A DNA stretch of 37,486 nucleotides, taken from assembly GCA_028684885.1 (NCBI GenBank), contig JAQUFB010000006.1, positions 1 to 37,486 on the forward strand, read 5' to 3'. Within the stretch, counting starts at the first letter, position 1; each line of letters starts with the position of its first letter. Below are positions 13,777 to 35,629 of this stretch, piece by piece. Below the pieces are notes generated by a model. The model made no database searches. It was given only the letters and a program-made list of their open reading frames with translations, and was not told the DNA's origin. The DNA comes from Sulfurovum sp. (GTDB lineage Bacteria > Campylobacterota > Campylobacteria > Campylobacterales > Sulfurovaceae). A program made the translations under genes and the position numbers.

Positions 13777-15302
13777 TATTTCGCCTCCTTCGTTGATTTC
13801 GCTACATGTATCATATCTTTTGCCTCTTGCGTGATCGCTTTTTCATCCATAAAGTTCAACATCGCTTTTACAGAGTTGTCGATCGGGTCAAGGATAGGTT
13901 TCGGATAGACACCCAGCCAGACCACGATTGCCACGAGCGGAATAAGTGACCAGGTCTCTTTTGCATCAAGATCTTTGAGGTTCTTGTTCTCTTCTTTGGT
14001 TACAGGACCGAAGAAACTCTTTTTAAAGAGTGTAAGCATATAGACAGAACCGATAATGATCGATGTACCGGCAAGGACCGTCATGATCGGAGAAACCTGA
14101 TAGAAACCTATCAATACAAGGAATTCACCGACAAATCCGATCGTCAGAGGCAGTCCCACGGAAGCCATCAGCATAATACCGAAGATCACTGCATATTTCG
14201 GCATGACCGCTGCGATACCGCCGAACTCATCCATCATCTTCGTGTGTCTTCTGTCATAGATCACACCTACAAGCATGAACAGTGCACCCGAAACAATCCC
14301 GTGTGAAAGCATCTGGAAGACAGAACCGCCGATACCTTCGGCATTCATCGCAAAGATACCGAGCATTACGATACCCATGTGGGATACCGATGAGTATGCG
14401 ATCACCTGTTTCATATCTTTCTGTGCATACGCTACCATCGCTGTATAGATGATCATAATGATAGAGAGTACCGCGATCGGTGTGATCCAGATCACCGCAG
14501 CATCAGGGAATAACGGTAGGGAGAATCTTACAAACCCGTAGGTACCCATCTTGAGCAGCACGGCTGCAAGGATCACAGAACCGATCGTCGGTGCCTGTCC
14601 GTGTGCATACGGAAGCCAGGTATGGAACGGGAACATAGGAACCTTGATCGCAAACCCGATAAAGAATGCGGCAAAAAGCCACATCTGGTAGCTGACCGGA
14701 AGGACCAGTGCATACCAGTCAGTCAGCGCGAAGCTCCACACACCGGTAAGGCTCTGATAGGTATATGCCATAAAGAGCATACCGACCAGCATGATCAGTG
14801 ATCCTGCAAAGGTATAAAGGAAGAACTTGACCGCTGCATAGACTCTCAAGGATCCGCCCCACGCACCGATGATATAGAGCATCGGCACAAGTGAGAGCTC
14901 CCAGAAGAGATAGAAGATGATCGCATCAAGCGAAACAAATACACCTACCATTGTCATCTCGAGGAAAAGCAGCGTTATGATCATGTTTTTCACATTCTCT
15001 TTTACACTCAGACTCATGATACCGATCAGAGTCATCATCGTCGTCATCAGGATGATGAAAAGAGAGATCCCGTCAACGCCGAGGTAGTAGTTGACACCGA
15101 AATCCGGAATCACCGGGATCAGCTCTACGAACTGCATCCCTGCATTGGTTCCGTCAAAACTGAACCACAACCATAATGAGAGGAAGAACTCGATCGCTGC
15201 TACAGTGATACCGTAAACCCTGGCACTGTCCTTGTCTATCACAAACCCCAGCAATCCCGCGATTGCCGGGAAAAATACCAATATACTTAAAATATAATCC
15301 AT
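13776..15302 (-). CDS. nuoM: Complex I subunit NuoM (antiporter-like)
   Basis: A 508-residue antiporter-like proton-channel subunit. IIFYLFWELSLVPMLYIIGA carries the essential Glu of helix 5, FAIKVPMFPFHTWLPYAHGQ the helix-7 Lys, and APTIGSVILAAVLLKMGTYG the next conserved block. DMKQVIAYSSVSHMGIVMLG and MLSHGIVSGALFMLVGVIYD complete the family pattern. It has a longer cytoplasmic C-terminal tail (TKEENKNLKDLDAKETW, ending KSTKEAK). It lies 11 bases downstream of nuoL. Confidence 0.95.
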   Translation of the reverse strand: MDYILSILVFFPAIAGLLGFVIDKDSARVYGITVAAIEFFLSLWLWFSFDGTNAGMQFVELIPVIPDFGVNYYLGVDGISLFIILMTTMMTLIGIMSLSVKENVKNMIITLLFLEMTMVGVFVSLDAIIFYLFWELSLVPMLYIIGAWGGSLRVYAAVKFFLYTFAGSLIMLVGMLFMAYTYQSLTGVWSFALTDWYALVLPVSYQMWLFAAFFIGFAIKVPMFPFHTWLPYAHGQAPTIGSVILAAVLLKMGTYGFVRFSLPLFPDAAVIWITPIAVLSIIMIIYTAMVAYAQKDMKQVIAYSSVSHMGIVMLGIFAMNAEGIGGSVFQMLSHGIVSGALFMLVGVIYDRRHTKMMDEFGGIAAVMPKYAVIFGIMLMASVGLPLTIGFVGEFLVLIGFYQVSPIMTVLAGTSIIIGSVYMLTLFKKSFFGPVTKEENKNLKDLDAKETWSLIPLVAIVVWLGVYPKPILDPIDNSVKAMLNFMDEKAITQEAKDMIHVAKSTKEAK

Positions 15303-15313
15303 CTATCTACTCC

Positions 15314-17212
15314 TTAACCTATCATCGCCGTTACTGCTGCAGCTACCATGAGTACAACCGCACCTACAGCCATCCAATTAAGGTAGTGTGAAAGGTTACC
15401 GGTCTGCATACGTCTGTTGACATCCCCGCTCTTATAGAGGAAATGCGCAACGCCATCTACTGTTCTGTCTACAATCTTCATGTCTACACCATGCCAGAAT
15501 TTCTCCGAAATCATCGCATAAGGCTTTGAGATCAACTCTGTATAGAGATTCGGGATATAGTACTGGTTTGACAGAAGCTTGTAGATAAAGCTGTTCTCGA
15601 GTTTCTCGTTTCTCTCAAGGCCTTTGTTGTATTTGATATAGGCAAGTGCGATACCGCCTACGGCAAAGAGTGTAACAATCGCTGTAAGCAACCATACATA
15701 GTGGTGTGTATGTTCACTCATATGATATGCAGGAAGGAGACTTGTTACAAATGTCTCAAATCCGTCTTTGAAAGCACCGGCGATCACGGCTAGGATCGCA
15801 AGCGGTGACATCGCGATCAGTACGAATTTGTACATCTCATGCGGATGGATCTCGTGGTGGTCATATCTCTCCGTTCCGTGGAATGTCAGGAATACCTGTC
15901 TAAAGCTGTAGAATGCCGTCATCCCTGCAGTCACTACAAGCATAATCCAGAGGATATAAGTCCCTTCATTGAACGCCGTCTCGATGATCGCGTCTTTGGA
16001 GAAGAATCCTGCAAGCGGGAAGATACCAGCAAGTGTCAAGGAGGCAAGACCCATATAGATATAGGTTGGTCTCATCACTTTTTTCAATCCACCCATCTTG
16101 AAGATATCCAGCTCATCATGCATTGCGTGCATGACGTTACCTGCACCAAGGAAGAGCAGTGCTTTGAAGAATGCGTGAGCCACAAGGTGGAAAAGTGCGA
16201 TCCAGTAGGCACCAAGACCCGCAGCGGCAAACATATAACCAAGCTGAGAGAGTGTCGAGAATGCAATGATTCTCTTAAGGTCCCTGTTGACCAATGCCAT
16301 GGATGCGGCAAAGAAGGCCACGAATGTACCGAGTGCTGCGATAAAGTAGCTTACTTCAGGAGTCACCGAGAAGAGCGGGTTCGCTCTGATCACCAGGAAT
16401 ACCCCTGCGGTTACCATCGTAGCGGCGTGGATCAGTGCAGATACCGGGGTAGGACCTTCCATCGCATCCGTAAGCCATGTATGAAGCGGGAACTGTGCTG
16501 ATTTACCCATCGCACCGATAAAGAGCGCAAGTGCCGCACCGTTCAGAATCCACTGATCAAGATTTGGAATCGCTGCAAATACGTCATCGTACTGAAGTGA
16601 ACCTACATTCCAGTAAAGGATAAACAGACCGACAAGCATACCAAGGTCGGCAATACGGTTCATGATGAACGCTTCGTTTGCTGCCCATGACGGAGAGATC
16701 GATGGATTCGCTTCTCTTGACTGGTCCGGTTTGTGATACCAGAAACCGATAAGAAGCCATGAACAGACACCCACGCCTTCCCAACCGATGAAGAGGCCTG
16801 CAAAGTTGTCACTCATGACAAGTACCATCATTGAGAATACGAATGCCGATAGGTAAGAGAAGAATCTGTTGAATGATTTGTCATGATCCATATACCCGAT
16901 CGAATAGACATGAACGATTGTTGAGATCAGTGACACCATCGTCATCATTGTCACAGAAACCTGGTCAGCTACAAAACCAAACGGGATATAGAGGTCTCCC
17001 ATCCCGATCCATTGCATCATCGTAACGGAGACTGCTTCACCTGTAGTGAAGATATTCACAGCCAGTGTTGCCGATGCGACAAACCCTGTAAAGAGCAGAA
17101 GTGACGCAATGATACCAACAAAAGTCTTTCTTGGTGTCATCGCGAACATCGCTGCAAAGAGCGAAGAGACCAGCGGTGCAAAGAGTGCGATATATACTAA
17201 TTTTTCCATCAT
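15314..17212 (-). CDS. nuoL: Complex I subunit NuoL (antiporter-like with lateral helix)
   Basis: A 632-residue distal pump subunit. LFIGWEGVGVCSWLLIGFWY carries the helix-5 Glu; QFPLHTWLTDAMEGPTPVSA and LIHAATMVTAGVFLVIRANP are the Lys and helix-8 blocks. HLVAHAFFKALLFLGAGNVM is the helix-12 segment. The C-terminal part, past about residue 500, contains the expected amphipathic lateral helix (NSFIYKLLSNQYYIPNLYTE) and a final membrane helix. The ATG overlaps the nuoK stop (TAATG), with AAGGGG just upstream. Confidence 0.95.
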   Translation of the reverse strand: MMEKLVYIALFAPLVSSLFAAMFAMTPRKTFVGIIASLLLFTGFVASATLAVNIFTTGEAVSVTMMQWIGMGDLYIPFGFVADQVSVTMMTMVSLISTIVHVYSIGYMDHDKSFNRFFSYLSAFVFSMMVLVMSDNFAGLFIGWEGVGVCSWLLIGFWYHKPDQSREANPSISPSWAANEAFIMNRIADLGMLVGLFILYWNVGSLQYDDVFAAIPNLDQWILNGAALALFIGAMGKSAQFPLHTWLTDAMEGPTPVSALIHAATMVTAGVFLVIRANPLFSVTPEVSYFIAALGTFVAFFAASMALVNRDLKRIIAFSTLSQLGYMFAAAGLGAYWIALFHLVAHAFFKALLFLGAGNVMHAMHDELDIFKMGGLKKVMRPTYIYMGLASLTLAGIFPLAGFFSKDAIIETAFNEGTYILWIMLVVTAGMTAFYSFRQVFLTFHGTERYDHHEIHPHEMYKFVLIAMSPLAILAVIAGAFKDGFETFVTSLLPAYHMSEHTHHYVWLLTAIVTLFAVGGIALAYIKYNKGLERNEKLENSFIYKLLSNQYYIPNLYTELISKPYAMISEKFWHGVDMKIVDRTVDGVAHFLYKSGDVNRRMQTGNLSHYLNWMAVGAVVLMVAAAVTAMIG

Positions 17213-17514
17213 TACCCCTTCATCGTCGCAAGATCGTCAAGATCAAGACTTCCGTGTTTTTTATACAGTACGATCAAGATACCAAGTCCAACCGCAACTT
17301 CTGATGCTGCGATCGCGATCACGAAGAACGCAAACATTTGACCCGTAAGATCATTGTAAAAGTGCGAAATCGCTGCAAATGCAATGTTCACTGCATTGAG
17401 CATCACCTCAGTCGCGAAGAAGAGCATCAATAGGTTTCTTCTTCTAAGTACGCCAATCAATCCTATAGAAAACAGAAGCGCTGATACGATCAGGTAGTGT
17501 GACAAACCTATCAT
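17212..17514 (-). CDS. nuoK: Complex I subunit NuoK
   Basis: A 100-residue, three-helix membrane subunit of the E-channel region. FATEVMLNAVNIAFAAI carries the conserved helix-2 Glu, and VIAIAASEVAVGLGILIVLY the helix-3 Glu. The length is standard for the family. The start overlaps the nuoJ stop by four bases (ATGA). Confidence 0.95.
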   Translation of the reverse strand: MIGLSHYLIVSALLFSIGLIGVLRRRNLLMLFFATEVMLNAVNIAFAAISHFYNDLTGQMFAFFVIAIAASEVAVGLGILIVLYKKHGSLDLDDLATMKG

Positions 17515-18110
17515 TTCTCATCCTTTTGTGTCAAAATTTCATCTTCTCCCGCATCTTCATCCATTATCTCGGTCAAAGATTGATCCATCTTTTTACCTGC
17601 AAGGATAATACCTGCGATCATCGCCACCAAGAGCATCAGTGCGGCAACTTCAAACGGAACAAGATATTTTGTAAAGAGTACGATACCCACATCCTGTGCG
17701 TTACCGACGCCTTCATGCATCGGGTAGAGCGCCTGGATGCTCTCAGAGTGGATCGGAGCGGCAAACATCAATACAAGCATCAATGCACTAAGCCCTCCAA
17801 GCACAAAGACCACCGCTCCGTTTGTATTCTTCTCTTTGATCTCCCTTGTTGCATCGAAGAACATCATTGCAAAGGAGTAGAGCGCCATGATAGCCCCCAC
17901 ATATACGATGAGCTGGACAACACCGAGGAAGTCCGCCCCAAGAATGAAAAAGAAGCCTGAAATCAGTACCATACCCGATGCAAGTGAAGTCATTGCGTAG
18001 AGTACGTTATTGCTCATAACAGTAATCCAGAAGAGGATTATCGTCAAAAATGAAAAGAGGTAAAATGCAAACCCCTGAAATGTAAACAGTGATGCCAAAA
18101 AGTTTTCCAT
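17511..18110 (-). CDS. nuoJ: Complex I subunit NuoJ
   Basis: A 199-residue, five-helix membrane subunit near the quinone site. GADFLGVVQLIVYVGAIMAL includes the family-typical pi-bulge helix 3 and is followed by YSFAMMFFDAT. The tail is acidic and soluble (DEDAGEDEILTQKDEK). The ORF track starts at 18182 inside nuoI, but ATG 18110 (MENFLASLFTFQ) has AAGGAGGA 7 bases upstream and lies 13 bases past the nuoI stop, so it is the real start. Confidence 0.93.
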   Translation of the reverse strand: MENFLASLFTFQGFAFYLFSFLTIILFWITVMSNNVLYAMTSLASGMVLISGFFFILGADFLGVVQLIVYVGAIMALYSFAMMFFDATREIKEKNTNGAVVFVLGGLSALMLVLMFAAPIHSESIQALYPMHEGVGNAQDVGIVLFTKYLVPFEVAALMLLVAMIAGIILAGKKMDQSLTEIMDEDAGEDEILTQKDEK

Positions 18111-18123
18111 GACTGTCTCCTCC

Positions 18124-18747
18124 TTAATACGCCAGCGGCGTTTTTTTGATGTTTTCATCAGCATTCGGAGATACGGCACCAAACCCGTCGTACTCTTGCT
18201 GCAAGCTCAGTTTGTCGATCGGTGTAAGCATATCCTCAAAGAGCGAGAAACTTGCTCTCTGCTCTGAAGCTGTCTCATATCGCGGACCATGGACGATTGC
18301 CAGTTCCGGACAGACTTCCGCGCAGTAACCGCAGAAAATACAACGGCCGAAGTTGATCGTATACTCGCTCACCTCTTTACGCTGATTTTCGTCGTAACGC
18401 GTCTCCATAGTGATACAGTTCGAAATACAGATTTTCTCACAGAGACCGCAGCCGATACATCTGTAGTGGCCGCTCTCCAGCAGCCTCAGCATCTCATGGA
18501 TCGCTCTGTATCTCGGAGAGATAGGGAGTTTCTCAAGCGGATATTTCACCGTATGCATCTGTCCCCTGAAGAGTGCATTGAACATCTCTCTTACCGTGAC
18601 ACCAAGACCGACAAAAAGTTCGCCTTTGAAAGTTCTCTTTGCCACCTGGGTAAACTTTGCCATCGGAGTCTTCGGCGACTCCTGCAGGTTAAGTACCTTG
18701 TACTCCTGAGTCCCTACATTTCTGTTTTTAAATTGTTCTAAACCCAT
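18124..18747 (-). CDS. nuoI: Complex I subunit NuoI (2 x [4Fe-4S])
   Basis: A 207-residue peripheral subunit carrying clusters N6a and N6b, which pass electrons from NuoG to NuoB. The ferredoxin motifs are C97-C100-C103-C107 (CIGCGLCEKICISNC) and C136-C139-C142-C146 (CIFCGYCAEVCPE), with the expected single Pro in the second. The N-terminus has an amphipathic segment (about 40-68) that meets the membrane. The start is MGLEQFKNRN, 10 bases after nuoH. Confidence 0.95.
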   Translation of the reverse strand: MGLEQFKNRNVGTQEYKVLNLQESPKTPMAKFTQVAKRTFKGELFVGLGVTVREMFNALFRGQMHTVKYPLEKLPISPRYRAIHEMLRLLESGHYRCIGCGLCEKICISNCITMETRYDENQRKEVSEYTINFGRCIFCGYCAEVCPELAIVHGPRYETASEQRASFSLFEDMLTPIDKLSLQQEYDGFGAVSPNADENIKKTPLAY

Positions 18748-18757
18748 CTTTACTCCC

Positions 18758-19798
18758 TTATACCATCATCACTATACCGGTGACTACAACGTTGATCACT
18801 GCAATCGGCATCAAGACTTTCCAACACAGCCACATCAACTGATCCGGTCTAACGTGCGGCCATGCTGCTCTTACCCACAGCATCAGGAAGAAGAAGAATG
18901 CCACTTTCAGAAGGATCATGATCCAACCTGCGATAAATCCGAAGTCGTTATATCCGCCGAGGAAAACCACCGCAGCAAGAATCGAGATCGTGATCATATT
19001 CGCATACTCACCGATGAAAAACATCCCCCATCTCATTCCCGAATACTCTGTCGCATATCCGGAAATAACCTCTGCCTCGTGTTCAAGAAGGTCAAACGGA
19101 GTTCTGTTTGTCTCAGCGAACCCTGCGATCAGGAAAAGGACAAATGCTACCGGCTGCTGCCAGATGAACCATGATGTGATTCCGCCTGACTGTGCCTCAT
19201 TGAAGTCGATCAGCGAGAGTGATCCCACAAGCATGATCGGAGCAAGAAGGGAAAGTCCCGTGACCACCTCATAGGAGAGGAACTGGATCGCTGTCCTTGC
19301 CGCACCGATGATACCCCATTTGTTCGCCTGTGCCATACCTGCCAGAAGCGGTCCGTAAAGCCCTGCAGCCATCATACCGATAACAAAAAGAATCCCTACA
19401 TTCACATCTGAAGCGATCGATGGAACAAATGTACCTCCAAGTACCGGAATAAACTCAGGAATCGTAAAGTCCGGGAAGACCGGAACACCTGCCAATGCGA
19501 TAAATGCCGTTGCCGCAGTAATCACAGGCGCTACTTTAAAGATCAGGGAATTGGCGTGCTGAGGCACGATATCCTCTTTGGTAAAGAGCTTGATACCATC
19601 CGCTGCAATCTGCAGCAAACCGTATGGACCGACATGCGTCGGCCCGAGACGGCGCTGCATAAACGCCAGAACCTTTCTTTCCAGGTAGGTACCGAAACCT
19701 GCTATCGCAGAGATAATCGCAAGGATCAGGATCGCTTTGATCGCCACACCTGCAGCCGTTACCTCCGGTAGTTGTCCTATAAGTGTTGTTGTTTCCAT
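18758..19798 (-). CDS. nuoH: Complex I subunit NuoH
   Basis: A 346-residue, eight-helix subunit forming the heel of the membrane arm and much of the quinone chamber. LERKVLAFMQRRLGPTHVGP near residue 40 and AETNRTPFDLLEHEAEVISG near 225 are the most conserved blocks of the family (the latter is usually PFDLPEGESELVSG; here LLEHEAEV). GMRWGMFFIGEYANM follows. It lies 3 bases after nuoG copy 2. Confidence 0.95.
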   Translation of the reverse strand: METTTLIGQLPEVTAAGVAIKAILILAIISAIAGFGTYLERKVLAFMQRRLGPTHVGPYGLLQIAADGIKLFTKEDIVPQHANSLIFKVAPVITAATAFIALAGVPVFPDFTIPEFIPVLGGTFVPSIASDVNVGILFVIGMMAAGLYGPLLAGMAQANKWGIIGAARTAIQFLSYEVVTGLSLLAPIMLVGSLSLIDFNEAQSGGITSWFIWQQPVAFVLFLIAGFAETNRTPFDLLEHEAEVISGYATEYSGMRWGMFFIGEYANMITISILAAVVFLGGYNDFGFIAGWIMILLKVAFFFFLMLWVRAAWPHVRPDQLMWLCWKVLMPIAVINVVVTGIVMMV

Positions 19799-19801
19799 CG
19801 T

Positions 19802-22282
19802 TTACACCTTCTTAATTGTTACATTTTTGTATCTTGACCCGCCGAAGAGATCATACACACCTGCCGCAGCCCTGAAATCTGATACTTTGACAATATCACC
19901 TTCCATCTTCCCGTCAGCGATCACATCCATCACAATGCTTCCGTTGTCAAACACGATTTCAACTCTCTCGCCCAGTTCTTCCGCTTTTGCTGGACTTACA
20001 TAGACCCCGAATGCCTCAAAGATCTCATGTGACTTGTCTGTAAAGTCATTGAACTGTCTTGCCGGGTTGCAGCGGTATGCGATCTCTCCCTCTAATGCTG
20101 CAGCTTCATCAAACTTTTCAACAGTCGGAAGTGCAGCTTCGGTTGATGTGATATCAAGCAAATATCCACGGTCTTCTGTACCGTTATTGAGGTAACGATT
20201 TGGCAGCGCATCAAAGGCAACTGCCCGGTATCCTTTCTCTACGGGAAGCATCGGTGTCCAGTCGATCGTAAGTGCCGGTGCCCCGACCAATACTTTCATC
20301 AGATCGTTCAGCTCATATCCACCGTATGGAAGCGCTGCATTGGTTGGAACGACTCTTTTTGACATCGTCGTAAATGTCCCTTCCTGCTGGTTCATTGCCG
20401 GCATATCAAGATCGCCGTTCCCCAGTGCGGAAAGCCTGAAATCACCGTTTTCATTGTATCCTACCGTATACCCTGACGCTTCATCATCGAGATCACAGAT
20501 CAGTGCCACACCAAGTGCATTTGATTTTGGTGGAGCCATCACCACATCGATAGTTGTTGTTGCTTCGATCAGCGCGATCAGTTTCGCGATATTTTCCGCA
20601 TTGTCATGGAAGTAGAGGTCTTCCCCTACCATCATTGAGAAGGACTCTTTTTTCTTCATCATCTTCTCAAATGCATCCGGGAACTTCTCGGAATCACCGC
20701 CGAGAAGATCGATTAGTCCGTTCTTTTCGACAGTGATCTCTTTTTCTACTGTCTCTTTGACTTTTTTGGTAACCTCTTCCTCTTCACCTGTCTCTTCGTT
20801 TTTGACCAACTCTTTAACTGTCTTATCGACCTTCTCTTTGATCGTCTTGGTCTCCGAGGTTTTGAAGGAATCGATATAGGCCTTTACCTCTTCGGGAAGC
20901 TTTTGTGCATCAGCAAAAAGATCAAGGATAAGATAGAGCGCTGCCTCTTCAAAACCCGGTTTATGGTTAAAGCACTCGACGCTCTTACCGAATGACGGGA
21001 TCAGCGTATCAGCTACCGGATGGAAATAGAGCCCTGCACCCTTGTTCAGCTTTTGAACATTGTTGAACGCATACTTCATACCCGGGCTGTCATTTCTGAG
21101 CGCGGCACCTACCGAGATCACAAAATCTGCACGCTTCATAATCGCATCCGTATCTGTTGACCAGAGCGATCTGCCGCTTGCTGCCTGATAATGGTTCAGG
21201 AACTTCTGGAACGCCCTCACTTCAGGGTTGTAGAGTTTGACACCCATCTTCTCTTTGAGCGTCTGAAGCATCATCGCCTCTTCATTGGTGATCACGGAGT
21301 TGAATCTGATCGTTCCTGCTTTTTTGAATGCTTCGACCGCGGCATTGAATGCCGCTTCATCTTTGGTTGCACCCTCATTTTCAAAGTCGTAGGCAAAACG
21401 CGCTGCACCGTCGAGTGATACATAGTTCCATTCGTTTGTCACGCGGAAGATCTTCTCTCTTCTGTCTTCGATCGATCTTGGCTTCGTCTCATAGTAGATC
21501 GCAAACCCGTCACTGGAGTGTGCCGAGACCGCAGGAATACGCTTAAGATCCCATGCATTTGACTGATAGACGAAATCTCTGCTTACAAGAGCTCCCACCG
21601 GACAGACCGCGATACATTCACCACAATCCGAACAGTTTGTATGATCTGTTCCGTTGCTTGGGGCGATCAATGACTTCTGGAGTTTGTTCCACATCGCATA
21701 GGCATCTTTCGGCATGCTCTCTTTAAATGCTTTGTCGATATCCGCGCCGCCTCTTTTTGTCGTAGAGATCGCTGCATCGCCGATCATATCCTTACATACC
21801 GTCGTACAACGCTCACACACGATACAGAGGCCCGGATCGTAGTGAAGTACGCTACTCCAGTTCTGCGTCTCTCTCTTGGTGTCAGGGATCGCATAGTTTT
21901 GGGAATCAACCTGCAGTTCAAGCGTATAGTTCTGTAATTCGCACTCACCGCTTTTGTCACACACACCACATTGAAGCGGGTGGTTGACATCATAGACTTC
22001 CATGATCGCCCTGCGTTCTTCAAGGATATTCGGAGTATTTACATTGATCTCCATTCCCTCTTTTACTTTCGCATTACACGCATATACCTGCTTGCCGTCT
22101 GCCTCAACCAGACAGATACGGCAAGCCAAAGTAGGCGAACATCTTGTCAAATAACAAATAGCCGGTATAAAGACTTCGTTGGCACGGGCTGCATTAAGGA
22201 TATACTCACCCTCAACAGCCTCATACTCCACACCATCGATCTTGATACTTACCATGTTTTCTACTGTTTTTACTTCACTCAT
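19802..22282 (-). CDS. nuoG: Second NuoG-like subunit (divergent paralogue)
   Basis: An 826-residue paralogue of the upstream NuoG. The [2Fe-2S] N1b ligands are C43, C54, C57, C69. N5 is H101-C105-C108-C114 (HPLQCGVCDKSGEC). CIVCERC (C153-C156-C159) and an extra ferredoxin-like CSDCGECIAVCPVGAL (C217-C227) provide N4 and perhaps one more cluster. The N7 motif is absent: the aligned stretch is IPAVSAHSSDGF, against SSCSHCGGGC in copy 1. A highly charged Lys/Glu segment of about 50 residues (KTIKEKVDKTVKELVKNEET and on) interrupts the C-terminal molybdopterin-like domain. ALGNGDLDMPAMNQQEGTF is nearly shared with copy 1, showing descent by duplication. The track start is too early; ATG 22282 has AGGAAG before it, one base after the copy 1 stop. 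Confidence 0.9.
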   Translation of the reverse strand: MSEVKTVENMVSIKIDGVEYEAVEGEYILNAARANEVFIPAICYLTRCSPTLACRICLVEADGKQVYACNAKVKEGMEINVNTPNILEERRAIMEVYDVNHPLQCGVCDKSGECELQNYTLELQVDSQNYAIPDTKRETQNWSSVLHYDPGLCIVCERCTTVCKDMIGDAAISTTKRGGADIDKAFKESMPKDAYAMWNKLQKSLIAPSNGTDHTNCSDCGECIAVCPVGALVSRDFVYQSNAWDLKRIPAVSAHSSDGFAIYYETKPRSIEDRREKIFRVTNEWNYVSLDGAARFAYDFENEGATKDEAAFNAAVEAFKKAGTIRFNSVITNEEAMMLQTLKEKMGVKLYNPEVRAFQKFLNHYQAASGRSLWSTDTDAIMKRADFVISVGAALRNDSPGMKYAFNNVQKLNKGAGLYFHPVADTLIPSFGKSVECFNHKPGFEEAALYLILDLFADAQKLPEEVKAYIDSFKTSETKTIKEKVDKTVKELVKNEETGEEEEVTKKVKETVEKEITVEKNGLIDLLGGDSEKFPDAFEKMMKKKESFSMMVGEDLYFHDNAENIAKLIALIEATTTIDVVMAPPKSNALGVALICDLDDEASGYTVGYNENGDFRLSALGNGDLDMPAMNQQEGTFTTMSKRVVPTNAALPYGGYELNDLMKVLVGAPALTIDWTPMLPVEKGYRAVAFDALPNRYLNNGTEDRGYLLDITSTEAALPTVEKFDEAAALEGEIAYRCNPARQFNDFTDKSHEIFEAFGVYVSPAKAEELGERVEIVFDNGSIVMDVIADGKMEGDIVKVSDFRAAAGVYDLFGGSRYKNVTIKKV

Positions 22283-22283
22283 C

Positions 22284-24557
22284 TTAGCTTCCTGCCTCTT
22301 CATTTTTGGTGGATGAAAAATCGACGCTTTTAAATCTATAAGAGGATAGCAAAGCCGCACTTAATCCCATATCATAGCTCGGATTAAGCGCAATATTTCC
22401 GCTCATAGATGTATCGATCTTAAACACACGGCTGAACGTGACACCATCGATTTCATATAGCACTCTCTGACCGTCATCGAGTCCTGTCTCTTTTGCAAAT
22501 GCAGCCGAACCCACCAGTTGTGCTTCACCTGTGATCGCCTCACATTTTGCCGTTAACGGCGAAAACTGTTCAACAGGATTGCAGTGATAGACCACGGGAC
22601 CCATATTCTTTGTACTCTCTACAGCCTCGATCGTCTGATCTAACGCTATGTTGACCTCGTCAAGAAGGTAGCCCCTATGCTCCCTGCCGCTAATATCAAA
22701 ATAGTCCGGCAGGTCGTCAAATGCTTCCTGTTTGAATCCCTGCAATTGGGGAAGTGCAGTTGTATATTCTATCGTATATTCGGCTTCAATTCCTATTGCA
22801 TTGGCAATGTCGTTAAGTATATAGCCGCCATATGACTTGGCCACATGCATCGGTACCAGACGCTTGTCGTTGCTGACCAGTGTTCCTTCCTGCTGATTCA
22901 TTGCCGGCATATCAAGGTCACCCTCTCCCAATGCGGAGAGTGTAAAGTCACCTTTGACATTGTATCCTACACTCATGCCTTCGATCTCATCATCCAGGTC
23001 GCAGATCAGTGATACACCCATCGCATTCCCCGCAGGCGGCACACATACGACATTGAATCCTGCATATCTTTCAAGCAGTGCAAGCAGTTTTGCGATATTT
23101 TCCGCTCTCGGGTGTGCATAGAGATCGCTTCCCACAACCAGAGAGAAGCCCTGTTTCTTGCTCAAAGCGTTCTGAAGCAGCCCGATCTCTTCACTGCTGA
23201 TCCCGCTTTGTGCTGCAAGCGTCTCCGGATCGAGTGTTTCCAGTACTGAAGTGATATTCTGAGGCATCGTTTCTGCTTCTCCGGACAACGCCAAAACCAG
23301 CTGCGCGGCTACCGCCTCTTCGCTACCCGGTGCATAGTGCATAAACTGGGTGACGATGTTTTTCATCTCCTCGTCACGTATCGGATGCAGGTAAGCAACC
23401 CTTGCTCTGTGCCATTTGCTCGCCATATTGATATGGTATTTCACATTCGGTGCATCATTATTGATACGTGTACCGAACACGATCACGCCTTTGGATTCGG
23501 ATATCTTCTTCAGTGTACCGCTAAAGAGGTTTTTGCCTGTAATGGAACCGTATGCCCGCATGAACTTCTGATAGGCCCTTGCCTCGTGGCAGATCAGTTT
23601 GGTTCCCTGCTTCTCTTTGATCTTTTGAAGGATCAGTGCCTCTTCATTGCTGATCTGCGGTGCGAAGAGGATACTCTGTGCATTCGCTACGGCATTTACA
23701 GCACTTTTAAATGCCTCTTTATCTTTGCTTACGCCTTCGTTGGCATAGTCAAACCCGTAACGTCCCGCACCGCACAGCGTGGAGAATTCCGCATGGTTGC
23801 TTACACGGTAGATCGTGTCTCTTTTGACCTCGTAGCTCATCTGGCACCCGCCGCCGCAGTGTGAACAGGATGAAGGGATCTTTGTAAGCTCCCATGCATT
23901 GGTACGATACTTGAAGTTCGTATCCACCAGCGCACCTACAGGGCAGACCGCTGCCGCTTCACCGAGGCTTGCATAGTTCTTCTCTTTCTTGACATTCACG
24001 ATACTGGATGAGTACCCTCCGAACTTCAGCTGAAGCGCTTCATCGCCCGTGATCTCCGTGGAGACCCTTACGCACTTCTCACACATGATACAGAGTGCCG
24101 GATCATAAGAGACATGTCCCCAGTTCTCTACGGGCCTGTGCTGGTCGCGCGCCGTAAAGGGCTGGTCTCCCACGTCAAACTCAAGTGTCTTGTTCTGAAG
24201 GTCACATTCCCCGCTCTGGTCGCATACGCCGCACTCAAGCGGGTGGTTGACATTATAAAGTTTCATAATGTTCTGACGTTCCCGGTAAAGCTCAGGAGTC
24301 TGCGTCATCACCACTGCACCGTCCGTTGCCTTCTCCTGGCAGGAGAGGATCGCACCGTCAACCCCTTCGACATTCACAAGACACATACGGCATGATCCGA
24401 TCGGCTGGGTTTTGGTCAAATAACACATTGTCGGGATATAGATGCCGTTTTCTCTTGCGATCTCAAGGATCGTCTTTCCGAAAGTGCTCTTGCACTCTTT
24501 TCCGTTGATAGTGACAGTGATCTCTTTTCCGAGTCCCAATGAATTATGTCTACTCAT
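22284..24557 (-). CDS. nuoG: Complex I subunit NuoG (copy 1, full cluster set)
   Basis: A 757-residue NuoG. N1b: C45, C56, C59, C73 (MCYLTKTQPIGSCRMCLV). N5: H105, C109, C112, C118 (HPLECGVCDQSGEC). N4: C156, C159, C162 (CIMCEKC) and C205 (CPVGAL). N7: C231, C234, C238 (CSHCGGGC) with C262 (LCGAG). All ligands of a canonical NuoG, including the off-path N7, are therefore present. The C-terminal molybdopterin-oxidoreductase-like domain is non-catalytic in this family. It starts one base after the FAD-fusion gene and ends one base before nuoG copy 2, so the three are tightly coupled. Confidence 0.93.
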   Translation of the reverse strand: MSRHNSLGLGKEITVTINGKECKSTFGKTILEIARENGIYIPTMCYLTKTQPIGSCRMCLVNVEGVDGAILSCQEKATDGAVVMTQTPELYRERQNIMKLYNVNHPLECGVCDQSGECDLQNKTLEFDVGDQPFTARDQHRPVENWGHVSYDPALCIMCEKCVRVSTEITGDEALQLKFGGYSSSIVNVKKEKNYASLGEAAAVCPVGALVDTNFKYRTNAWELTKIPSSCSHCGGGCQMSYEVKRDTIYRVSNHAEFSTLCGAGRYGFDYANEGVSKDKEAFKSAVNAVANAQSILFAPQISNEEALILQKIKEKQGTKLICHEARAYQKFMRAYGSITGKNLFSGTLKKISESKGVIVFGTRINNDAPNVKYHINMASKWHRARVAYLHPIRDEEMKNIVTQFMHYAPGSEEAVAAQLVLALSGEAETMPQNITSVLETLDPETLAAQSGISSEEIGLLQNALSKKQGFSLVVGSDLYAHPRAENIAKLLALLERYAGFNVVCVPPAGNAMGVSLICDLDDEIEGMSVGYNVKGDFTLSALGEGDLDMPAMNQQEGTLVSNDKRLVPMHVAKSYGGYILNDIANAIGIEAEYTIEYTTALPQLQGFKQEAFDDLPDYFDISGREHRGYLLDEVNIALDQTIEAVESTKNMGPVVYHCNPVEQFSPLTAKCEAITGEAQLVGSAAFAKETGLDDGQRVLYEIDGVTFSRVFKIDTSMSGNIALNPSYDMGLSAALLSSYRFKSVDFSSTKNEEAGS

Positions 24558-24558
24558 A

Positions 24559-26568
24559 TCACACCGCCACCATTGAAATATAATAACAACGCATACAGCG
24601 CTCAGCTTCGGCGATCGCCTCTTCTCCTGTAAACCCGAGGTTTACCTCTCTGTTGTTGTCTTTTCGCTCATCTACACCGAGTTTTTCGCTGACCGCTCTT
24701 GGAAGGCCGGGCATCCAGCCGGTGATCTTTTCTTTCTTGTCGTATACTTTGAGCTTATTGAGGTGATCTTCCATGATCTCATCATCGGTAAGCGTACACT
24801 TGCCGTCATAGATATAGCGGCTGATCACCGATGCGGCACGTCTTGCCTGACCCACCGCATTGACGATCGTCATCGGACCGTATTCACAGTCACCTGCCGC
24901 AAAAAGGCCTGGACGGGAAGTCATATAGTCTTTTCCGTTCGTCAACAGCGTATTCCACGATGTCAACTCTATGTTCCACTCTTCAGGAATCAGCTGCAGA
25001 TCCGCTGCCTGTGAAACCGCCGGGATCAGGTAGTCACACTCGAGCTCAAAGTCGCCGTCTTCCATCTTGACAAGCTGCGCACGTCCGCCGTTTGGATCGG
25101 GGACCAGCTCGAACCTGTTGCACTTGAGCTTTGTGATCTTCTCGCCGTCATCGATGATTTCCTCGATCGCCGAGTAAAAGATGAACTCCACACCCTCTTC
25201 TACCGCTTCATGGTACTCTTCGTAGGTCGTATTGCGGATGATCGTCCCCTCATCACGGCGGTACAGCATGATCACTTTCTTCGCGCCTTCACGCACAGAA
25301 CAGCGTACAACGTCCATTGAGGTAAACCCACCCCCGACACAGACGACTGTCTTGTCTTTCAGCTCATTGCTCGCCGGGCTTCCGATGCCGTACTTGCTCC
25401 AAAGGTTTACTTTGTCAAGCATCGCGATCGCACCCCAGTAACCGCCCATTTTCGGGTTTTCGTTCTCTGCATAGACCTTCTTGGAAAGTCTTGTACCAAA
25501 AGCGAGCAGTGTCGCATCATACTCCGCATCGATCTCCTTGAGACGATCAGCATCGACCCTGTGGTTATTGGTGATGCTTACTGTCGGCATCTGAAGGACA
25601 AACTCGATATCCTTGTTGTACTTGTCGATCGGCATACGGTACTCCGGTACACCTACGGCAACTTCGCCTCCGTTGACAGGAAGCTCTTCAAAGATATGTA
25701 CGTGAATCCCCTCCAGTGCCAGGTAGTAAGCCGCCGTAAGACCGGCAGGTCCTGCTCCGATGATCGCTACCTTTTTGCCGTCATTTCTAGGGGGCTTCGG
25801 TTCTTTCGGGTGCAGCCACGGGACCTGATGGTCCGTCTCATAGTCTGCTCCGATACGCTTCAGTTCCATGATCGAAATCGGCTCATCGAGGTTCGCTCTT
25901 CTACATGCATCTTCACACGGATGCGGACAGACACGCCCGCAGGTATGCGCAAGCGGCATCGTCTGTCTTGTTGCCTGAAGCGACTCGGTGAAGATCATAT
26001 CACGTACCCCTTCGATGTATGCCGGGATATCCACGTGTGCCGGACACATATCCGTACAGGGTGCCGTCACTTTGGCGATATAGGAAGTATCTCCGCCATA
26101 ATGTTTGGATGGTACCTGCGCATCGATACATCTGTCAAACTGCGCTTTATAGTGCTCCATCAGATCAAGGATAGGCTTGGGAACGGTCTTACCGATCTCG
26201 CACTTCGAAGTAGCCATCATTGTCTGAGAGACTTCCTTCAGATGGGCCACATCATCGTGCGTACCTTCGCCGCGTGCGATTTTATCGAGCAGGTCATACA
26301 GGATCCTGCCGCCCCAACGTCCCGGAGCACAACGGCCGCATGCCTCCGAGTACTGCTGATACTGTGCCGCATACTGGCTTGCCAGCTCAACCGCATCGAT
26401 GTCTTCGGTAAAGATGGCTACCCCATCCCATCCGATAAATGCTTTTGAACTCTTGTCTCCATGATAGGTTTCCGGCAGCTTGAACTCTGTTTCACTCCAC
26501 TCTTCAAGGGGTTTACCACGGTTGTCGATAAACTCGTCCCTCCAAGTTGAGAATACAATGTTTGACAT
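24559..26568 (-). CDS. NuoF C-terminal-domain remnant fused to a GltD-like FAD/NAD(P) oxidoreductase (complex I electron-input protein)
   Basis: A 669-residue protein in the nuoF position. Residues about 75-145 (EACGRCAPGRWGGRILYDLL ... SKCEIGKTVPKPILDLMEHY) align with the NuoF C-terminal N3-cluster domain, but the third ligand is Gly: C77-x2-C80-x2-G83 ... C123. The FMN/NADH-binding domain of NuoF is absent. Residues about 165-245 are the GltD/NfnB-type domain with C171-x3-C175 and C210-x3-C214-x3-C218-x3-C222. FAD binding is GAGPAG (271-276) within KKVAIIGAGPAGLTAAYYLA; NAD(P) binding is VVCVGGGFTSMDVVR, and FAAGDCEYGPMTIVNAVGQA closes the FAD site. A CxxC (658-661) sits at the end. The probable role is feeding electrons from NAD(P)H or another donor into NuoG. 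The fusion is seen directly; electron flow is inference. Confidence 0.9.
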   Translation of the reverse strand: MSNIVFSTWRDEFIDNRGKPLEEWSETEFKLPETYHGDKSSKAFIGWDGVAIFTEDIDAVELASQYAAQYQQYSEACGRCAPGRWGGRILYDLLDKIARGEGTHDDVAHLKEVSQTMMATSKCEIGKTVPKPILDLMEHYKAQFDRCIDAQVPSKHYGGDTSYIAKVTAPCTDMCPAHVDIPAYIEGVRDMIFTESLQATRQTMPLAHTCGRVCPHPCEDACRRANLDEPISIMELKRIGADYETDHQVPWLHPKEPKPPRNDGKKVAIIGAGPAGLTAAYYLALEGIHVHIFEELPVNGGEVAVGVPEYRMPIDKYNKDIEFVLQMPTVSITNNHRVDADRLKEIDAEYDATLLAFGTRLSKKVYAENENPKMGGYWGAIAMLDKVNLWSKYGIGSPASNELKDKTVVCVGGGFTSMDVVRCSVREGAKKVIMLYRRDEGTIIRNTTYEEYHEAVEEGVEFIFYSAIEEIIDDGEKITKLKCNRFELVPDPNGGRAQLVKMEDGDFELECDYLIPAVSQAADLQLIPEEWNIELTSWNTLLTNGKDYMTSRPGLFAAGDCEYGPMTIVNAVGQARRAASVISRYIYDGKCTLTDDEIMEDHLNKLKVYDKKEKITGWMPGLPRAVSEKLGVDERKDNNREVNLGFTGEEAIAEAERCMRCYYISMVAV

Positions 26569-26570
26569 AA

Positions 26571-26960
26571 CTACTCAGCCTTCTCTTCTTTTGCAGCTTC
26601 TACTTCTGCTGCCGCTTTTGCCGCTTTTTCAGCTTCTCTCTGTGCCTGAGCTTCAGCCTCAGCTTTTGCAGCAGCTTCTGCTTCTGCTTTTGCAGCTTCT
26701 GCTGCCTCTGCACGCGCTTTTCTTGTCTCTTCACTGACCTTTTTCACCACGATGGTCCAGTCCACTTCATTGAACTTCAGTGAGTTCATCAGGTCATGCC
26801 CCTGCGCTCTTACCAGATCTGCAGACTTCTGGATCGAACCGAAATCACCGACCTCAAAGAGGAAGATACCCACTTCATCGACATGCAGTCCCGTATCCAT
26901 CAGTTCGACCATTCTGTCATAGAAGTCGTCTTTCAAATGTCTTAAATCATATCTTCTCAT
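26571..26960 (-). CDS. NuoE-position small protein (HP1264/Cj1575c-like) with Ala/Glu/Lys-rich tail
   Basis: A 129-residue protein in the nuoE position. Residues 1-75 (MRRYDLRHLKDDFYDRMVEL ... VGIFLFEVGDFGSIQKSADL ... NSLKFNEVDWTIVVKK) match the short proteins that replace NuoE in Helicobacter (HP1264) and Campylobacter (Cj1575c), as far as I recall. It has no cysteine at all, so it cannot carry the [2Fe-2S] N1a cluster of true NuoE. Residues about 76-129 form an extra low-complexity Ala/Glu/Lys helix, encoded by GCAGAAGC-like repeats. It lies 2 bases before the FAD-fusion gene. Its function is unknown, probably a structural adaptor of the input module. Confidence 0.82.
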   Translation of the reverse strand: MRRYDLRHLKDDFYDRMVELMDTGLHVDEVGIFLFEVGDFGSIQKSADLVRAQGHDLMNSLKFNEVDWTIVVKKVSEETRKARAEAAEAAKAEAEAAAKAEAEAQAQREAEKAAKAAAEVEAAKEEKAE

Positions 26961-26998: not shown

Positions 26999-28231
26999 TC
27001 ATCTATCAACTTCACCGAATACGATATTGGTCGTACCAATGATCGTAACGACGTCTGCAATGTATGTTCCCACAAGGATCTCCTGAAGCAATCCTGTATG
27101 GAAGAAGCTCGGTGCTCTACACTTCAATCTGTAGGCATACGGCTCACCTTCGGATTTGATATAGAATCCCAGTTCGCCTTTGGGAGACTCGGTCGGTACA
27201 TAGACTTCGCCTTTTGGCGGTCTCATCCCCTGAGTCACAAGCACAAAGTGCTGCATCAATGCATAGTTTTGTGTCATGATCTCCTCTTTGGGCGCAGAGA
27301 TATACTGCGGTGCATGTGCCATAAGCCTAGGCTCTGTCTTTTTGTACATCGGGATCAGCTGTCTAAGGATACGTGTAGACTGTTTCATCTCTTCCATATA
27401 GAGGCGGTAGCGTCCGTAGGAGTCACAGGTTTCCGCTACAGGGATATCGAAGTCAAGCTCGCTGTAAAGCTCGTAAGGCTCCTCTTTTCTGATATCATAC
27501 TTCACCCCTGAACCTCTGAGCATCGGACCGGTACATCCCCATGAGAGTGCCTCTTCCGCCGAGATCACACCGACATCCTCAAGACGCATTTTCCAGATAC
27601 GGTTCTCTGTAAGGAGCGCTTCGTAGGTGTGTTCAACTTCATAGTCCACCTTGTCACAGAACGCGGCAAGGTTTTCCAGCCACCCTGCAGGAAGATCCAA
27701 CGGTACACCGCCGATACGTACAGAGGAGTGAGTCAATCTCGCACCACAGTAATCCTCCATAAGGTCCATCGCATACTCACGCTCTCTGAAAGCATAGAGG
27801 AATACCGACATCGCACCGACATCGAGCGCATGCGTTGCAAGGAAGAAGAGGTGGGAGATCACACGGTTAAGCTCAAGCAGCATCGTTCTGATCACCTGTG
27901 CACGTCTTGGTGCTTCGATACCGAGAAGTTTCTCTACCGCCAATGCATAGGCATAGTTGTTTGCCGTTGATGCGATATAGTCAAGTCTGTCCGTTGTCGG
28001 GAGAAACTCATTGTAGGTCATGTTCTCCGCCATCTTTTCGATCCCTCTGTGAAGGTAACCGATATCAGGATAGGCTTTGACTACCTGCTCACCGTCAAGT
28101 TCCAGTACGAGTCTCAACTGTCCGTGTGCAGAAGGGTGCTGAGGACCGAAGTTGATCACCATGGTGTTATCATCACGCTCAAAATTGAGGTTTTCAAAAA
28201 ACGGGGTTAATTTATTGGGTTGTTGGCTCAT
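26999..28231 (-). CDS. nuoD: Complex I subunit NuoD (49-kDa type)
   Basis: A 410-residue quinone-site subunit related to the [NiFe]-hydrogenase large subunit. [20 protein letters not shown] includes the His of the quinone site, followed by [20 protein letters not shown] and [20 protein letters not shown]. The C-terminus [20 protein letters not shown] then [18 protein letters not shown] is the family's conserved end (the usual final D-x-D-R appears as EVDR). NuoC and NuoD are separate genes here, unlike E. coli. It starts 8 bases after nuoC. Confidence 0.96.
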
Positions 28232-28239
28232 CTTCCCTC

Positions 28240-29022
28240 CTACTTTCTTTCATCAAGCTGTTTTGTGCCAGCATTGTAGTTGACAAGGATCGTTTCGCTG
28301 TACTCGATCGCCTGCTCTTTTTCGCCCTCGCTGATATCAGCACCGAACGGTACTTCATATCCTACACGCGAGAAGCGTTTCGTATCATATCTCTCTACTT
28401 TTGCCGGATCTCTGTTCTCAGGCCCGATGATATCTCTGTACTCTTTGCCGAAGATCTTGTCTACCTCATACCATGATGCAAACTCGTCACCATGCAGCGG
28501 ATAGGTCTTGAGCAGCGGATGCCCTTCCCAGTCATCAGGCATAATGATACGTTTAAGGAACGGATGGTTGTTTACTTTGATACCGAACATATCATACATT
28601 TCGCGTTCTGCAAAGTTTGCTGATTTATACAGCGGTACGATACTCTCGATCGCCTCACCCTTTTTGATACGGCAAACGACCCTTACTCTCTTCGCTTCAG
28701 CATGATTAAGCAGCTGGTAGAAAAGCTCGAACTCCCCATCCTGCGCCAGGTAATCCACAGCAGACTGCTCAGAACACTGCTTATAGCCGCACTCGTCTCT
28801 CAGCGTCTTGATCACGGCAAAGTTCTCCGATGCATCGATATGGACGACCAGTTGACCCACTTCGATATAGGACTCTTTTACCTGGCTTCCAAGCGCATTC
28901 ACCACTGTTTCAAAGTGTGAACCCTCTTCTACCTCTTCTCTCGGTACACGCGGTGCCACCCAGAATCTGTCCGTGTAGTACGATTTTCCCTGTACATTGT
29001 CTTTTGGCGTATACTTTCTCAT
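28240..29022 (-). CDS. nuoC: Complex I subunit NuoC (30-kDa type)
   Basis: A 260-residue peripheral-arm subunit. The family core is [40 protein letters not shown] and [20 protein letters not shown] (the usual ERE-x-YDMFGI and [18 protein letters not shown]). There is an extra charged N-terminus of about 35 residues ([20 protein letters not shown]) and a C-terminal tail beyond the core. The ATG overlaps the nuoB stop as TAATG. Confidence 0.95.
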
Positions 29023-29540
29023 TACACTAACCTCAAGTTCTGTTTTGTATTCTTGTTCATGTTCGCTGACTCTTTTCTGATCTTCTTCTGAAGCATCATC
29101 AGTGCATACTGCAGTGTCTCAGGACGCGGTGCACATCCGGGAAGATAGATATCCACCGGCACGATACGGTCTACACCCTGTACCGTTGCATAGGTATTGA
29201 ACATACCGCCCGTATTTGCACATGATCCCATGGAGATGACCCATTTCGGTTCGCTCATCTGGTCATAAAGTCTTCTGGCAAACTCAGCGTGTTTTTTGGA
29301 AAGCGTCCCTGCAAGGATCATCACGTCAGATTGTCTCGGGGATGCCCTGAAGATCGTTCCGAAACGGTCGAAATCATATCTTGCACCACCCGCGGCCATC
29401 ATCTCGATCGCACAACATGCCAAACCATAGGTTAGCGGCCAAAGCGAGTTTGAACGCCCCCAGTTTACTAAATGATCTACCGTAGTCAACGCTATCGGCA
29501 AGCCTGCTGATGAGGCATAATTTACTTGATGCTGTGCCAT
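29022..29540 (-). CDS. nuoB: Complex I subunit NuoB (PSST type, cluster N2)
   Basis: A 172-residue subunit that holds the terminal [4Fe-4S] cluster N2, next to the quinone site. The ligands C42 and C43 ([11 protein letters not shown]), C107 (MGSCANTGG) and C136 ([10 protein letters not shown]) are all present, with [19 protein letters not shown] between them. The start lies inside the end of nuoA (19-base overlap), giving [10 protein letters not shown]; this overlap may be real or the start may be a few codons later, but no better Met is available before the conserved core. Confidence 0.95.
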
Positions 29541-29911
29541 TCAAGTGCTCCTTTCTTCCATGCATAAATAAATCCGATTGCAAGCAAAAGGATAAACAGA
29601 ATCATCTCAGCGAATCCGAACCATCCCAGCAGCTTAAAGTCAATCGCCCATGGGAACATAAAGATAATCTCTACGTCAAACAGGATAAACAGCAGGGCTA
29701 TCAGATAGAACTGTGCCGAGATCGTGTTTGGCTGCTTGGTTACCTCCGGTCCACATTCGTAGATCGTCAGTTTAAGCTTTTCAGTGTCGAGCCTTGCAAG
29801 TTTTCTACTTACAAAACGCGCTGCAAAAAGAGTCGCCGGAAAGGCAACCGCAGTAAGTGCAAACAGAAGAAAAACACCAAAATACGGGTGCTCTGTAATT
29901 ACGTGAGTCAT
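29522..29911 (-). CDS. nuoA: Complex I subunit NuoA
   Basis: A 129-residue, three-helix membrane subunit. [10 protein letters not shown] is the conserved loop with the quinone-site-proximal Cys (usually YECG). [13 protein letters not shown] and [20 protein letters not shown] are helices 2 and 3, with the family's Glu/Asp residues. The first gene of the operon; AAGGGAT lies 7 bases before the ATG. Confidence 0.95.
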
Positions 29912-30650: not shown

Positions 30651-31208
30651 CTACTGTATCCTGATCATACTATCATCGAGTATATTCTCTCTTTTCTCAG
30701 GGGAACTGCCATCATGCTCTAAATCATCCCCTTTGGCAAAGACCAATACATCCTCGTACTGATCAATATCTAGCATTGCAATCATACTATAACGTGTTTG
30801 CTCCAAGTTTTCCTCTTCATCTCCATTCGGTTCACCTACGATAACCTCTTCGCTGATTTTTGTCATATCAAACTCATACGCTTCATCACCATTTGAAGCT
30901 TGCACAAGATCACCAATCTTGTAACGAATTGTTATTACTTCATGATAAATGAGATCATCTTCATTACAACCAAACTCAGAATAAGTTTTTTTGTCAGCCT
31001 TTACTATAGTGTCAGAGATAAAGTGAGCTACAGTTTTCTTAGACTCTCCATAAAATTCATCATTCTTGCAGGGACTATATAAAGGTTCCCATACACCCAG
31101 TATCTTATTTTCTATGGTTTCATCAGTAGTATTTGTGCTTCCGCCCCCGCATCCTGTCATAAACAGTGTTCCCAATATCAGCGCTGTGTTTAAAAGATTT
31201 TTTGTCAT
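30651..31208 (-). CDS. Predicted lipoprotein of unknown function
   Basis: A 185-residue protein with a lipoprotein signal peptide MTKNLLNTALILGTLFMTGC (Cys20), then a Gly/Ser/Thr linker. The mature part begins KILGVWEPLYSPCKNDEFYG and contains VAHFISDTIVKADKKTYSEF and YHEVITIRYKIGDLV. Alternating strands and the N-terminal GVW resemble lipocalin-like or DUF-type beta proteins, but I cannot name a family. The acidic tail is DDLEHDGSSPEKREN. The start has GGGGAGA 5 bases upstream. It stands alone, convergent with the rhodanese gene, and is more AT-rich than its neighbours, which may mean later acquisition. Confidence 0.75.
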   Translation of the reverse strand: MTKNLLNTALILGTLFMTGCGGGSTNTTDETIENKILGVWEPLYSPCKNDEFYGESKKTVAHFISDTIVKADKKTYSEFGCNEDDLIYHEVITIRYKIGDLVQASNGDEAYEFDMTKISEEVIVGEPNGDEEENLEQTRYSMIAMLDIDQYEDVLVFAKGDDLEHDGSSPEKRENILDDSMIRIQ

Positions 31209-33526: not shown

Positions 33527-33553
33527 TTGAAAAATCCATTTTTAAAGTATCCG

Positions 33554-35380: not shown

Positions 35381-35629
35381 CGCTATAGAGAATCATCAAA
35401 TGAAACGCGACCAGTCGCGTGAGCACCCCAAGGGCACTTCTTTCAGGGCGCTCTCTGCTGAAGACAAGCAACTATATTGCAGTACAAGTGAAGCACTAAA
35501 TGCTGAATCGTGGAACCCAGTGTTAACAATCTCAAATAAAGAAAGTTGCCTGAACGGCAAGTTTTTTAACAGAGACAGGATGGAGCTTTGCTCTATCTCC
35601 GTCCTTCAAATGGAGCTAAGAAATGTTTA
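35367..35629 (+). mobile_element. 250-bp insertion flanked by a perfect 13-bp direct repeat, between the HPr-EI and EIICB genes
   Basis: TAAGAAATGTTTA occurs at 35367-35379 (EI stop) and again at 35617-35629 (EIICB start), exactly 250 bases apart. Without the insert, the EI end (RNV-stop) and the EIICB start (ATGTTTAG) would overlap as one stretch. The insert holds CGCGA-ccag-TCGCG (35406-35419), a diverged copy of the 24-bp element (35425-35449), a terminator-like hairpin TTGCC-tgaac-GGCAA with six T bases (35546-35567) and a hairpin at 35578-35598. It has no credible gene or terminal inverted repeats. Confidence 0.7.
35542..35598 (+). promoter_or_regulatory. Two-hairpin leader of the EIICB gene, first hairpin terminator-like
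   Basis: Hairpin 1, TTGCC-tgaac-GGCAA followed by GTTTTTT, could end transcription coming from ptsI. Hairpin 2 (35578-35598) has a 9-bp stem with two G-U pairs around TTT: GGATGGAGC-ttt-GCTCTATCT. The pair resembles the leader at 2379-2441. Confidence 0.5.

Follow-up and report, generated by a model that had tools for sequence, protein, structure and literature searches.

A NuoF N3 domain fused to a GltD-type flavoprotein as the proposed NADP(H)-input subunit of complex I in Campylobacterota

Complex I is the textbook NADH:quinone oxidoreductase. In the window analyzed here (the whole 37,486-nucleotide stretch of Sulfurovum sp. contig JAQUFB010000006.1), the nuoF slot of a complete nuo operon, between nuoX and two nuoG genes, is occupied by a gene for another kind of protein, and no FMN-type NuoF is present in the operon. 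The locus raises the question of how, and from which donor, electrons enter this complex I. Our answer is that in many Campylobacterota they appear to enter via an N3–GltD fusion protein rather than as NADH through NuoF. Coordinates are collected in Table 1.

Table 1. Features of the nuo locus in window coordinates
Feature	Position	Strand	Remark
N3–GltD fusion protein, proposed NADP(H)-input subunit of complex I, nuoF slot	24559..26568	-	669 aa, ATG start
NuoF-derived part (lead-in plus N3 domain), residues 26–147	26128..26493	-	Pfam and PDB matches
GltD-type region, residues 165–661: Fer4_20 cluster domain, FAD and NAD(P)H Rossmann domains, C-terminal Cys motif	24586..26076	-	
N3 ligands Cys77 and Cys80 (codons)	26329..26340	-	Cys in 61/61 homologues
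Gly83, replaces third N3 cysteine	26320..26322	-	Gly in 61/61; Cys in same-phylum NuoF/HydB-type proteins
Cys123 (fourth canonical N3 ligand) and invariant Glu124 (candidate fourth ligand, inferred)	26197..26202	-	
Lys237, aligned with StnC Lys170 (flavin-proximal cluster ligand; Glu in bifurcating NfnB)	25858..25860	-	
Arg437-Arg438 of YRR motif, invariant; probable NADP 2'-phosphate site (from GltD/NfnL/StnC homology)	25255..25260	-	
Cys658-x2-Cys661, completes GltD-type clusters from C-terminus	24586..24597	-	Permuted vs NfnL, as in StnC
NuoX (PF16514, HP1264/Cj1575c type, nuoE slot), Ala/Glu/Lys-rich tail	26571..26960	-	Pfam E 7.5e-38; PDB 2lxr E 2e-23
NuoG1, likely partner of N3–GltD protein	22284..24557	-	757 aa
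NuoG2, likely intrinsic NuoG	19802..22282	-	Start probably ~22282, not GTG at 22360
nuoA to nuoD block	26999..29911	-	B, C, D: orthologues in same order in other loci
nuoA	29522-29911	-	By position and sequence
nuoB	29022-29540	-	
nuoC	28240-29022	-	
nuoD	26999-28231	-	
nuoH to nuoN block	12286..19798	-	J and K by position
nuoH	18758-19798	-	
nuoI	18124-18747	-	
nuoL	15314-17212	-	
nuoM	13776-15302	-	
nuoN	12286-13776	-	

Architecture of the fusion protein

The initial annotation described the nuoF-slot product as a NuoF N3 domain plus a GltD-type flavoprotein, with the FMN/NADH domain of NuoF lost, and both parts of this description were borne out by Pfam and PDB matches. PF10589 (NADH_4Fe-4S) was significant on residues 68–145 (69.6 bits against a cut-off of 23.5; E = 2.2e-19), whereas the Pfam search gave no match to Complex1_51K (FMN; PF01512) or to an SLBB domain. 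Over the proposed GltD region (residues 165–669), it returned PF14691 (Fer4_20; residues 168–247, E = 2e-22) and PF07992 (Pyr_redox_2; residues 265–575, E = 7.7e-26). In the PDB search, residues 26–164 resembled HydB/NuoF chains from just before the N3 domain through it (7p5h_B, E = 3.6e-16), and residues 168–662 resembled Stn/Nfn-type chains (9bov_A, E = 4e-80; 8oh5_C, StnC, E = 3e-63). The NuoF-derived stretch is thus present as claimed, with a length of about 120 residues rather than about 70.

The protein stayed below the cut-offs of the full-length family models. The NuoF model TIGR01959 matched only over profile positions 298–408 of 410 and scored 50.8 bits, its threshold being 558.65, and NCBIfam NuoF models aligned only over their last ~110 positions, far below cut-off. 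Curated GltD models likewise stayed under threshold (TIGR01318, 197 bits against 482.95; TIGR01317, 165.7 against 447.7), as did the NAD(P)-binding protein model PRK12771 (NF009410; 360.8 bits against 516). The neighboring genes are nuo genes, and the fusion is not paired with GltB. In the source genome, which is 83% complete, the fusion is the sole PF10589 copy found, and no canonical NuoF was found. An AlphaFold2 model built with ten homologues (mean pLDDT 50, pTM 0.38) was too poor for judging docking. In seven homologues from two genera of one family, the N3 stub and the GltD part are separated by polar-rich inserts of ~60–300 aa, for total lengths of 724–962 aa.

Cofactor sites of the GltD half are strictly conserved. 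We aligned 61 Campylobacterota homologues (~47–92% identity): All eight Cys of this half are invariant, as are its nucleotide motifs, including YRR (R437, R438), and Lys237. Fer4_20 and Pyr_redox_2 domains with conserved cluster Cys and nucleotide motifs together make up a GltD-type NADPH:FAD module. Its ERCMRC cluster motif lies C-terminally, the same order as in the StnC-like chain 9bov_A; in the NfnL-type chain 4ylf the motif precedes Fer4_20. The closest characterized relatives of this half, StnC and NfnB/NfnL, are NADP(H) users. StnC takes NADPH at a non-bifurcating FAD, and its Lys170 is an unusual flavin-proximal cluster ligand that matters; bifurcating NfnB has Glu instead. Homology and the YRR motif support, but do not prove, NADP(H) as the substrate of the fusion, in line with the NADPH first suggested for it. 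Likewise, the StnC-type Lys in place of the Nfn-type Glu argues for a non-bifurcating FAD, short of proof.

A conserved three-Cys site at the N3 position

The third N3 cysteine was initially read as replaced by Gly83, and the homologue alignment agrees. Positions 77, 80, and 123 are always Cys and position 83 is always Gly, so that every one of the 61 homologues carries CxxCxxG...C in place of the four-Cys CxxCxxC...C of NuoF; in complete NuoF/HydB-type proteins of Campylobacterota, position 83 is Cys. Because all homologues share the Gly, it is neither a sequencing error nor a sign of a decaying cluster site. Calling the site a "remnant" or "damaged" is therefore misleading: Three Cys and one Gly, invariant across the phylum, constitute a conserved three-Cys site.

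Such a site may hold a [3Fe-4S] cluster, a [4Fe-4S] cluster with another ligand, or no cluster. The N3 part contains no other Cys conserved across the 61 homologues (C147 is Cys in 26 only). A compensating Cys three residues past the fourth ligand is absent, and G126 is invariant in the campylobacterotal fusions. Glu124, invariant in the same proteins and Gly or Ala in HydB-type relatives, is a candidate N3 ligand.

The Gly form also occurs in other phyla, as seen in a pattern scan of 85,462 species genomes. It was found in NuoF-N3-GltD fusions of ~1,070–1,130 residues from Victivallaceae, Lentisphaeria, and one deltaproteobacterium, and in NuoF/HydB-like proteins from Phycisphaerae, Ruminiclostridium, and an actinomycete. 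Five of six compared non-Campylobacterota Gly-form proteins have a new Cys three residues past the fourth ligand (CGLG -> CGLC), a proportion that is not a frequency because the six were found by their Gly. This exchange, missing in the campylobacterotal protein and in the deltaproteobacterial one, reads as a ligand swap in the sequences of the other phyla. Together, a three-Cys site fixed in Campylobacterota and a reciprocal exchange of Cys in other phyla amount to a natural experiment on N3 ligation.

A set of 12 NuoF-N3-GltD fusions (~1,000–1,370 aa) from a deltaproteobacterial group and Lentisphaeria/Victivallaceae probably combines FMN and FAD sites in one chain; these proteins are possible NADPH/NAD transhydrogenases or bifurcating enzymes.

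Gene order, NuoG copies, and the origin of NuoY

The order nuoD-nuoX-[N3-GltD]-nuoG1-nuoG2-nuoH recurs in nearly every fusion-bearing locus examined, across many families of the phylum; in the few exceptions, a contig end removed a neighbor or the simple ORF picker overlooked one. The fusion was found in about 80 of 298 sampled Campylobacterota genomes and NuoX in 242 of them. One genome of an otherwise fusion-bearing genus has two nuoX copies, one of them in a NuoY-type operon; its second nuoX lies at a contig end, and both complex I types may coexist there.

Within the window, NuoG1 retains the N1b, N5, N4, and N7 ligands and has lost the extra 4Fe-4S site, whereas NuoG2 retains N1b, N5, N4, and the extra site and has lost the N7 ligands; the losses are thus complementary. 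NuoG2 is of the Campylobacter/Helicobacter NuoG type.

Several side observations concern the surroundings. NuoX has a low-complexity Ala/Glu/Lys-rich tail (26571-26740); open frames of 170–205 aa in four genus relatives, versus ~76 aa elsewhere, suggest a genus-specific extension of variable length. A 185-aa putative lipoprotein without a Pfam match adjoins the operon (30651-31208). Farther along (33527-36999) lies a sugar phosphotransferase set, an HPr–enzyme I fusion plus an EIIC/EIIB protein, which to our knowledge is unusual for Campylobacterota; a search for PF02378 hit 10 of 12 further members of the genus and none of the other genera sampled.

Fusion-less loci of Helicobacter, Campylobacter, and other types carry in the slot after NuoX a protein of ~230–340 aa, NuoY, for which no Pfam family matched. 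The source operon has the NuoX (PF16514) of the NuoXY-type epsilonproteobacterial complex I, and after it stand the fusion and then a full-length NuoG1 rather than NuoY. One fusion-less locus, L132, encodes a NuoX differing from 2lxr at 1 of 76 residues; 2lxr is H. pylori HP1264, so the NuoY of L132 is of the HP1265 type.

NuoY is related to NuoG1. In HHalign comparisons it matched the C-terminal half of NuoG1 at E = 1e-60, versus ~1e-22 for NuoG2, and showed no profile similarity to the fusion (E = 0.46); the Helicobacter pair alone gave E = 4e-33 against NuoG1 and 2e-7 against NuoG2. In the tree, NuoY and NuoG1 form one group split from NuoG2-type sequences with 100% SH-aLRT support. The NuoG1-to-NuoY truncation may have happened once or more often: the test against a single NuoY clade gave a p-AU of 0.055, with long branches. 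Judged by sequence, NuoY (Cj1574c/HP1265 type) is an N-terminally truncated NuoG1 without the FeS half, an identification that is new here.

Reviews describe the replacement of nuoEF by nuoXY together with flavodoxin/ferredoxin input (PMC4178425, PMC6682613, PMC4585668). Given the truncation, the flavodoxin-linked complex I of the pathogens looks derived, and what passes for a "NuoF replacement" in Helicobacter and Campylobacter appears to be a leftover after loss of an input module. Retention of the NuoG1 C-terminus as NuoY, in the same slot and without the fusion, suggests that NuoG1 belongs to the structure of complex I and that its C-terminal domain is needed there structurally; it also suggests that the fusion and the NuoG1 FeS half form a detachable input module. 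If so, NuoY would be what structurally remains of a second NuoG rather than an electron acceptor resembling NuoF, and the flavodoxin docking site should therefore be sought elsewhere, in NuoG2 or NuoX.

Electron input and relation to known systems

We consider it likely, from sequence and gene context, that electrons enter complex I through the fusion and that the enzyme works as an NADP(H):menaquinone oxidoreductase. For such an enzyme we infer the following path. Hydride would be exchanged between NADP(H) and FAD in the GltD-type domain, and electrons would pass singly through its two [4Fe-4S] clusters to the three-Cys center at the old N3 position, then through the NuoG1/NuoG2 cluster wires to NuoI and menaquinone. 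The NuoF stub would have been retained because through it the protein docks natively on a NuoG and exchanges electrons with it. Run reversibly, the enzyme could oxidize NADPH and pump protons, or use the proton-motive force to reduce NADP+ during lithoautotrophic growth. Reverse electron transport in the source organism is plausible because the genus is autotrophic: ATP-citrate lyase, a marker of autotrophy, is present in 9 of the 12 other members searched. It was not found in the 83% of the source genome that is available.

A competing explanation holds that the N3–GltD protein pairs with NuoG1 in a soluble NADPH dehydrogenase of its own, SfrAB-like and only co-transcribed with complex I, the true complex I consisting of NuoG2 and NuoX and being fed by flavodoxin or ferredoxin. 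The two NuoG copies in the operon fit this, as do the Campylobacter/Helicobacter affinity of NuoG2 and the habit of SfrB-like proteins elsewhere of pairing with NuoG-like or hydrogenase partners (Collinsella; PMC3543383, PMC9888536). A bystander enzyme is nevertheless unlikely, given that its gene is embedded between nuoX and nuoG phylum-wide and that the NuoG1 C-terminus survives as NuoY, in the same slot, in fusion-less complex I operons.

Two further readings keep the fusion in complex I and change its chemistry. Direct ferredoxin or flavodoxin input at this subunit, also raised initially, would follow the proposal for the Campylobacter enzyme; flavodoxin input is reported (PMC4178425, PMC6682613) for the Campylobacter/Helicobacter complex I, which also has NuoX. 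The absence of a ferredoxin-binding domain from the fusion, the conservation of its FAD and NAD(P)H sites, and the lack of the fusion in the very lineages reported to use flavodoxin leave this reading with a small probability. Smaller still is the chance that the FAD bifurcates, Nfn-like, between the quinone wire and a second acceptor: The GltD fold is common to NfnL and an Arg near the FAD is conserved in the fusion homologues (R311), but Lys237 is of the non-bifurcating type and neither an NfnS-like partner nor a second acceptor site was seen in the operon.

Taking NADP(H) input through the fusion as the preferred reading, lineages that lost the fusion would also have lost the FeS part of NuoG1, leaving its C-terminal domain as NuoY while input shifted to flavodoxin. 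In a broader scenario, which we hold only tentatively and rate at somewhat under even odds, most Campylobacterota descend from an ancestor that had this enzyme: an NADP(H):menaquinone complex I with a three-Cys N3 center ([3Fe-4S] or Glu-ligated [4Fe-4S]) and a stoichiometry of two NuoG wires in one complex, from which the Helicobacter/Campylobacter form would have been reduced by deletion of the input flavoprotein and the NuoG1 FeS half, with NuoY left behind. A widespread input module rebuilt for NADP(H), if real, would change models of NADPH supply and reverse transport in sulfur- and hydrogen-oxidizing Campylobacterota.

The initial annotation knew of no description of this fused architecture with a damaged N3 site. 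The architecture itself is not unique: Collinsella aerofaciens has an FMN-less N3-GltD protein (610 aa) with a canonical CGKCTPCR, encoded immediately upstream of an [FeFe] hydrogenase whose N-terminus is NuoG-like. For complex I, no description of such a fused subunit was found in the open-access literature. The search covered open papers, so that the mere presence of a GltD-like gene among these nuo genes may already be on record. Related arrangements are an [FeFe] hydrogenase of Pelobacter whose NADPH partner is SfrB-like (PMC3543383) and a hydrogenase chain of Desulfitobacterium that contains an SfrB-like region (PMC9888536). The module of a GltD docked on a NuoG-like wire thus recurs, and complex I is, per the open literature, a new setting for it.

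Among known systems, the StnABC/Nfn-Bfu transhydrogenase, whose StnC is a GltD–NuoG fusion, shares with our protein a GltD-type NADPH:FAD module with two FeS clusters and a flavin-proximal Lys that feeds a NuoG-type wire. In Stn, however, GltD is fused into the NuoG-like chain and passes electrons to a bifurcating NuoF/NuoE pair (StnAB); the campylobacterotal GltD follows a NuoF stub that has no FMN site. SfrB of Geobacter and Pcar_2503 of Pelobacter are likewise NADPH oxidoreductase subunits, but soluble ones outside complex I, Pcar_2503 standing beside an [FeFe] hydrogenase like the Collinsella protein. With NuoF, the 51-kDa subunit of complex I, the fusion has the N3 domain (PF10589) and the operon slot in common; it differs in lacking the FMN/NADH domain and in having Gly as the third N3 residue. 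The epsilonproteobacterial NuoX/NuoY complex I (Cj1575c/Cj1574c, HP1264/HP1265) shares NuoX, a NuoG2-type NuoG, and gene order with the Sulfurovum operon, and has NuoY, which is not a NuoF analogue, where the latter has the N3–GltD protein and a full NuoG1.
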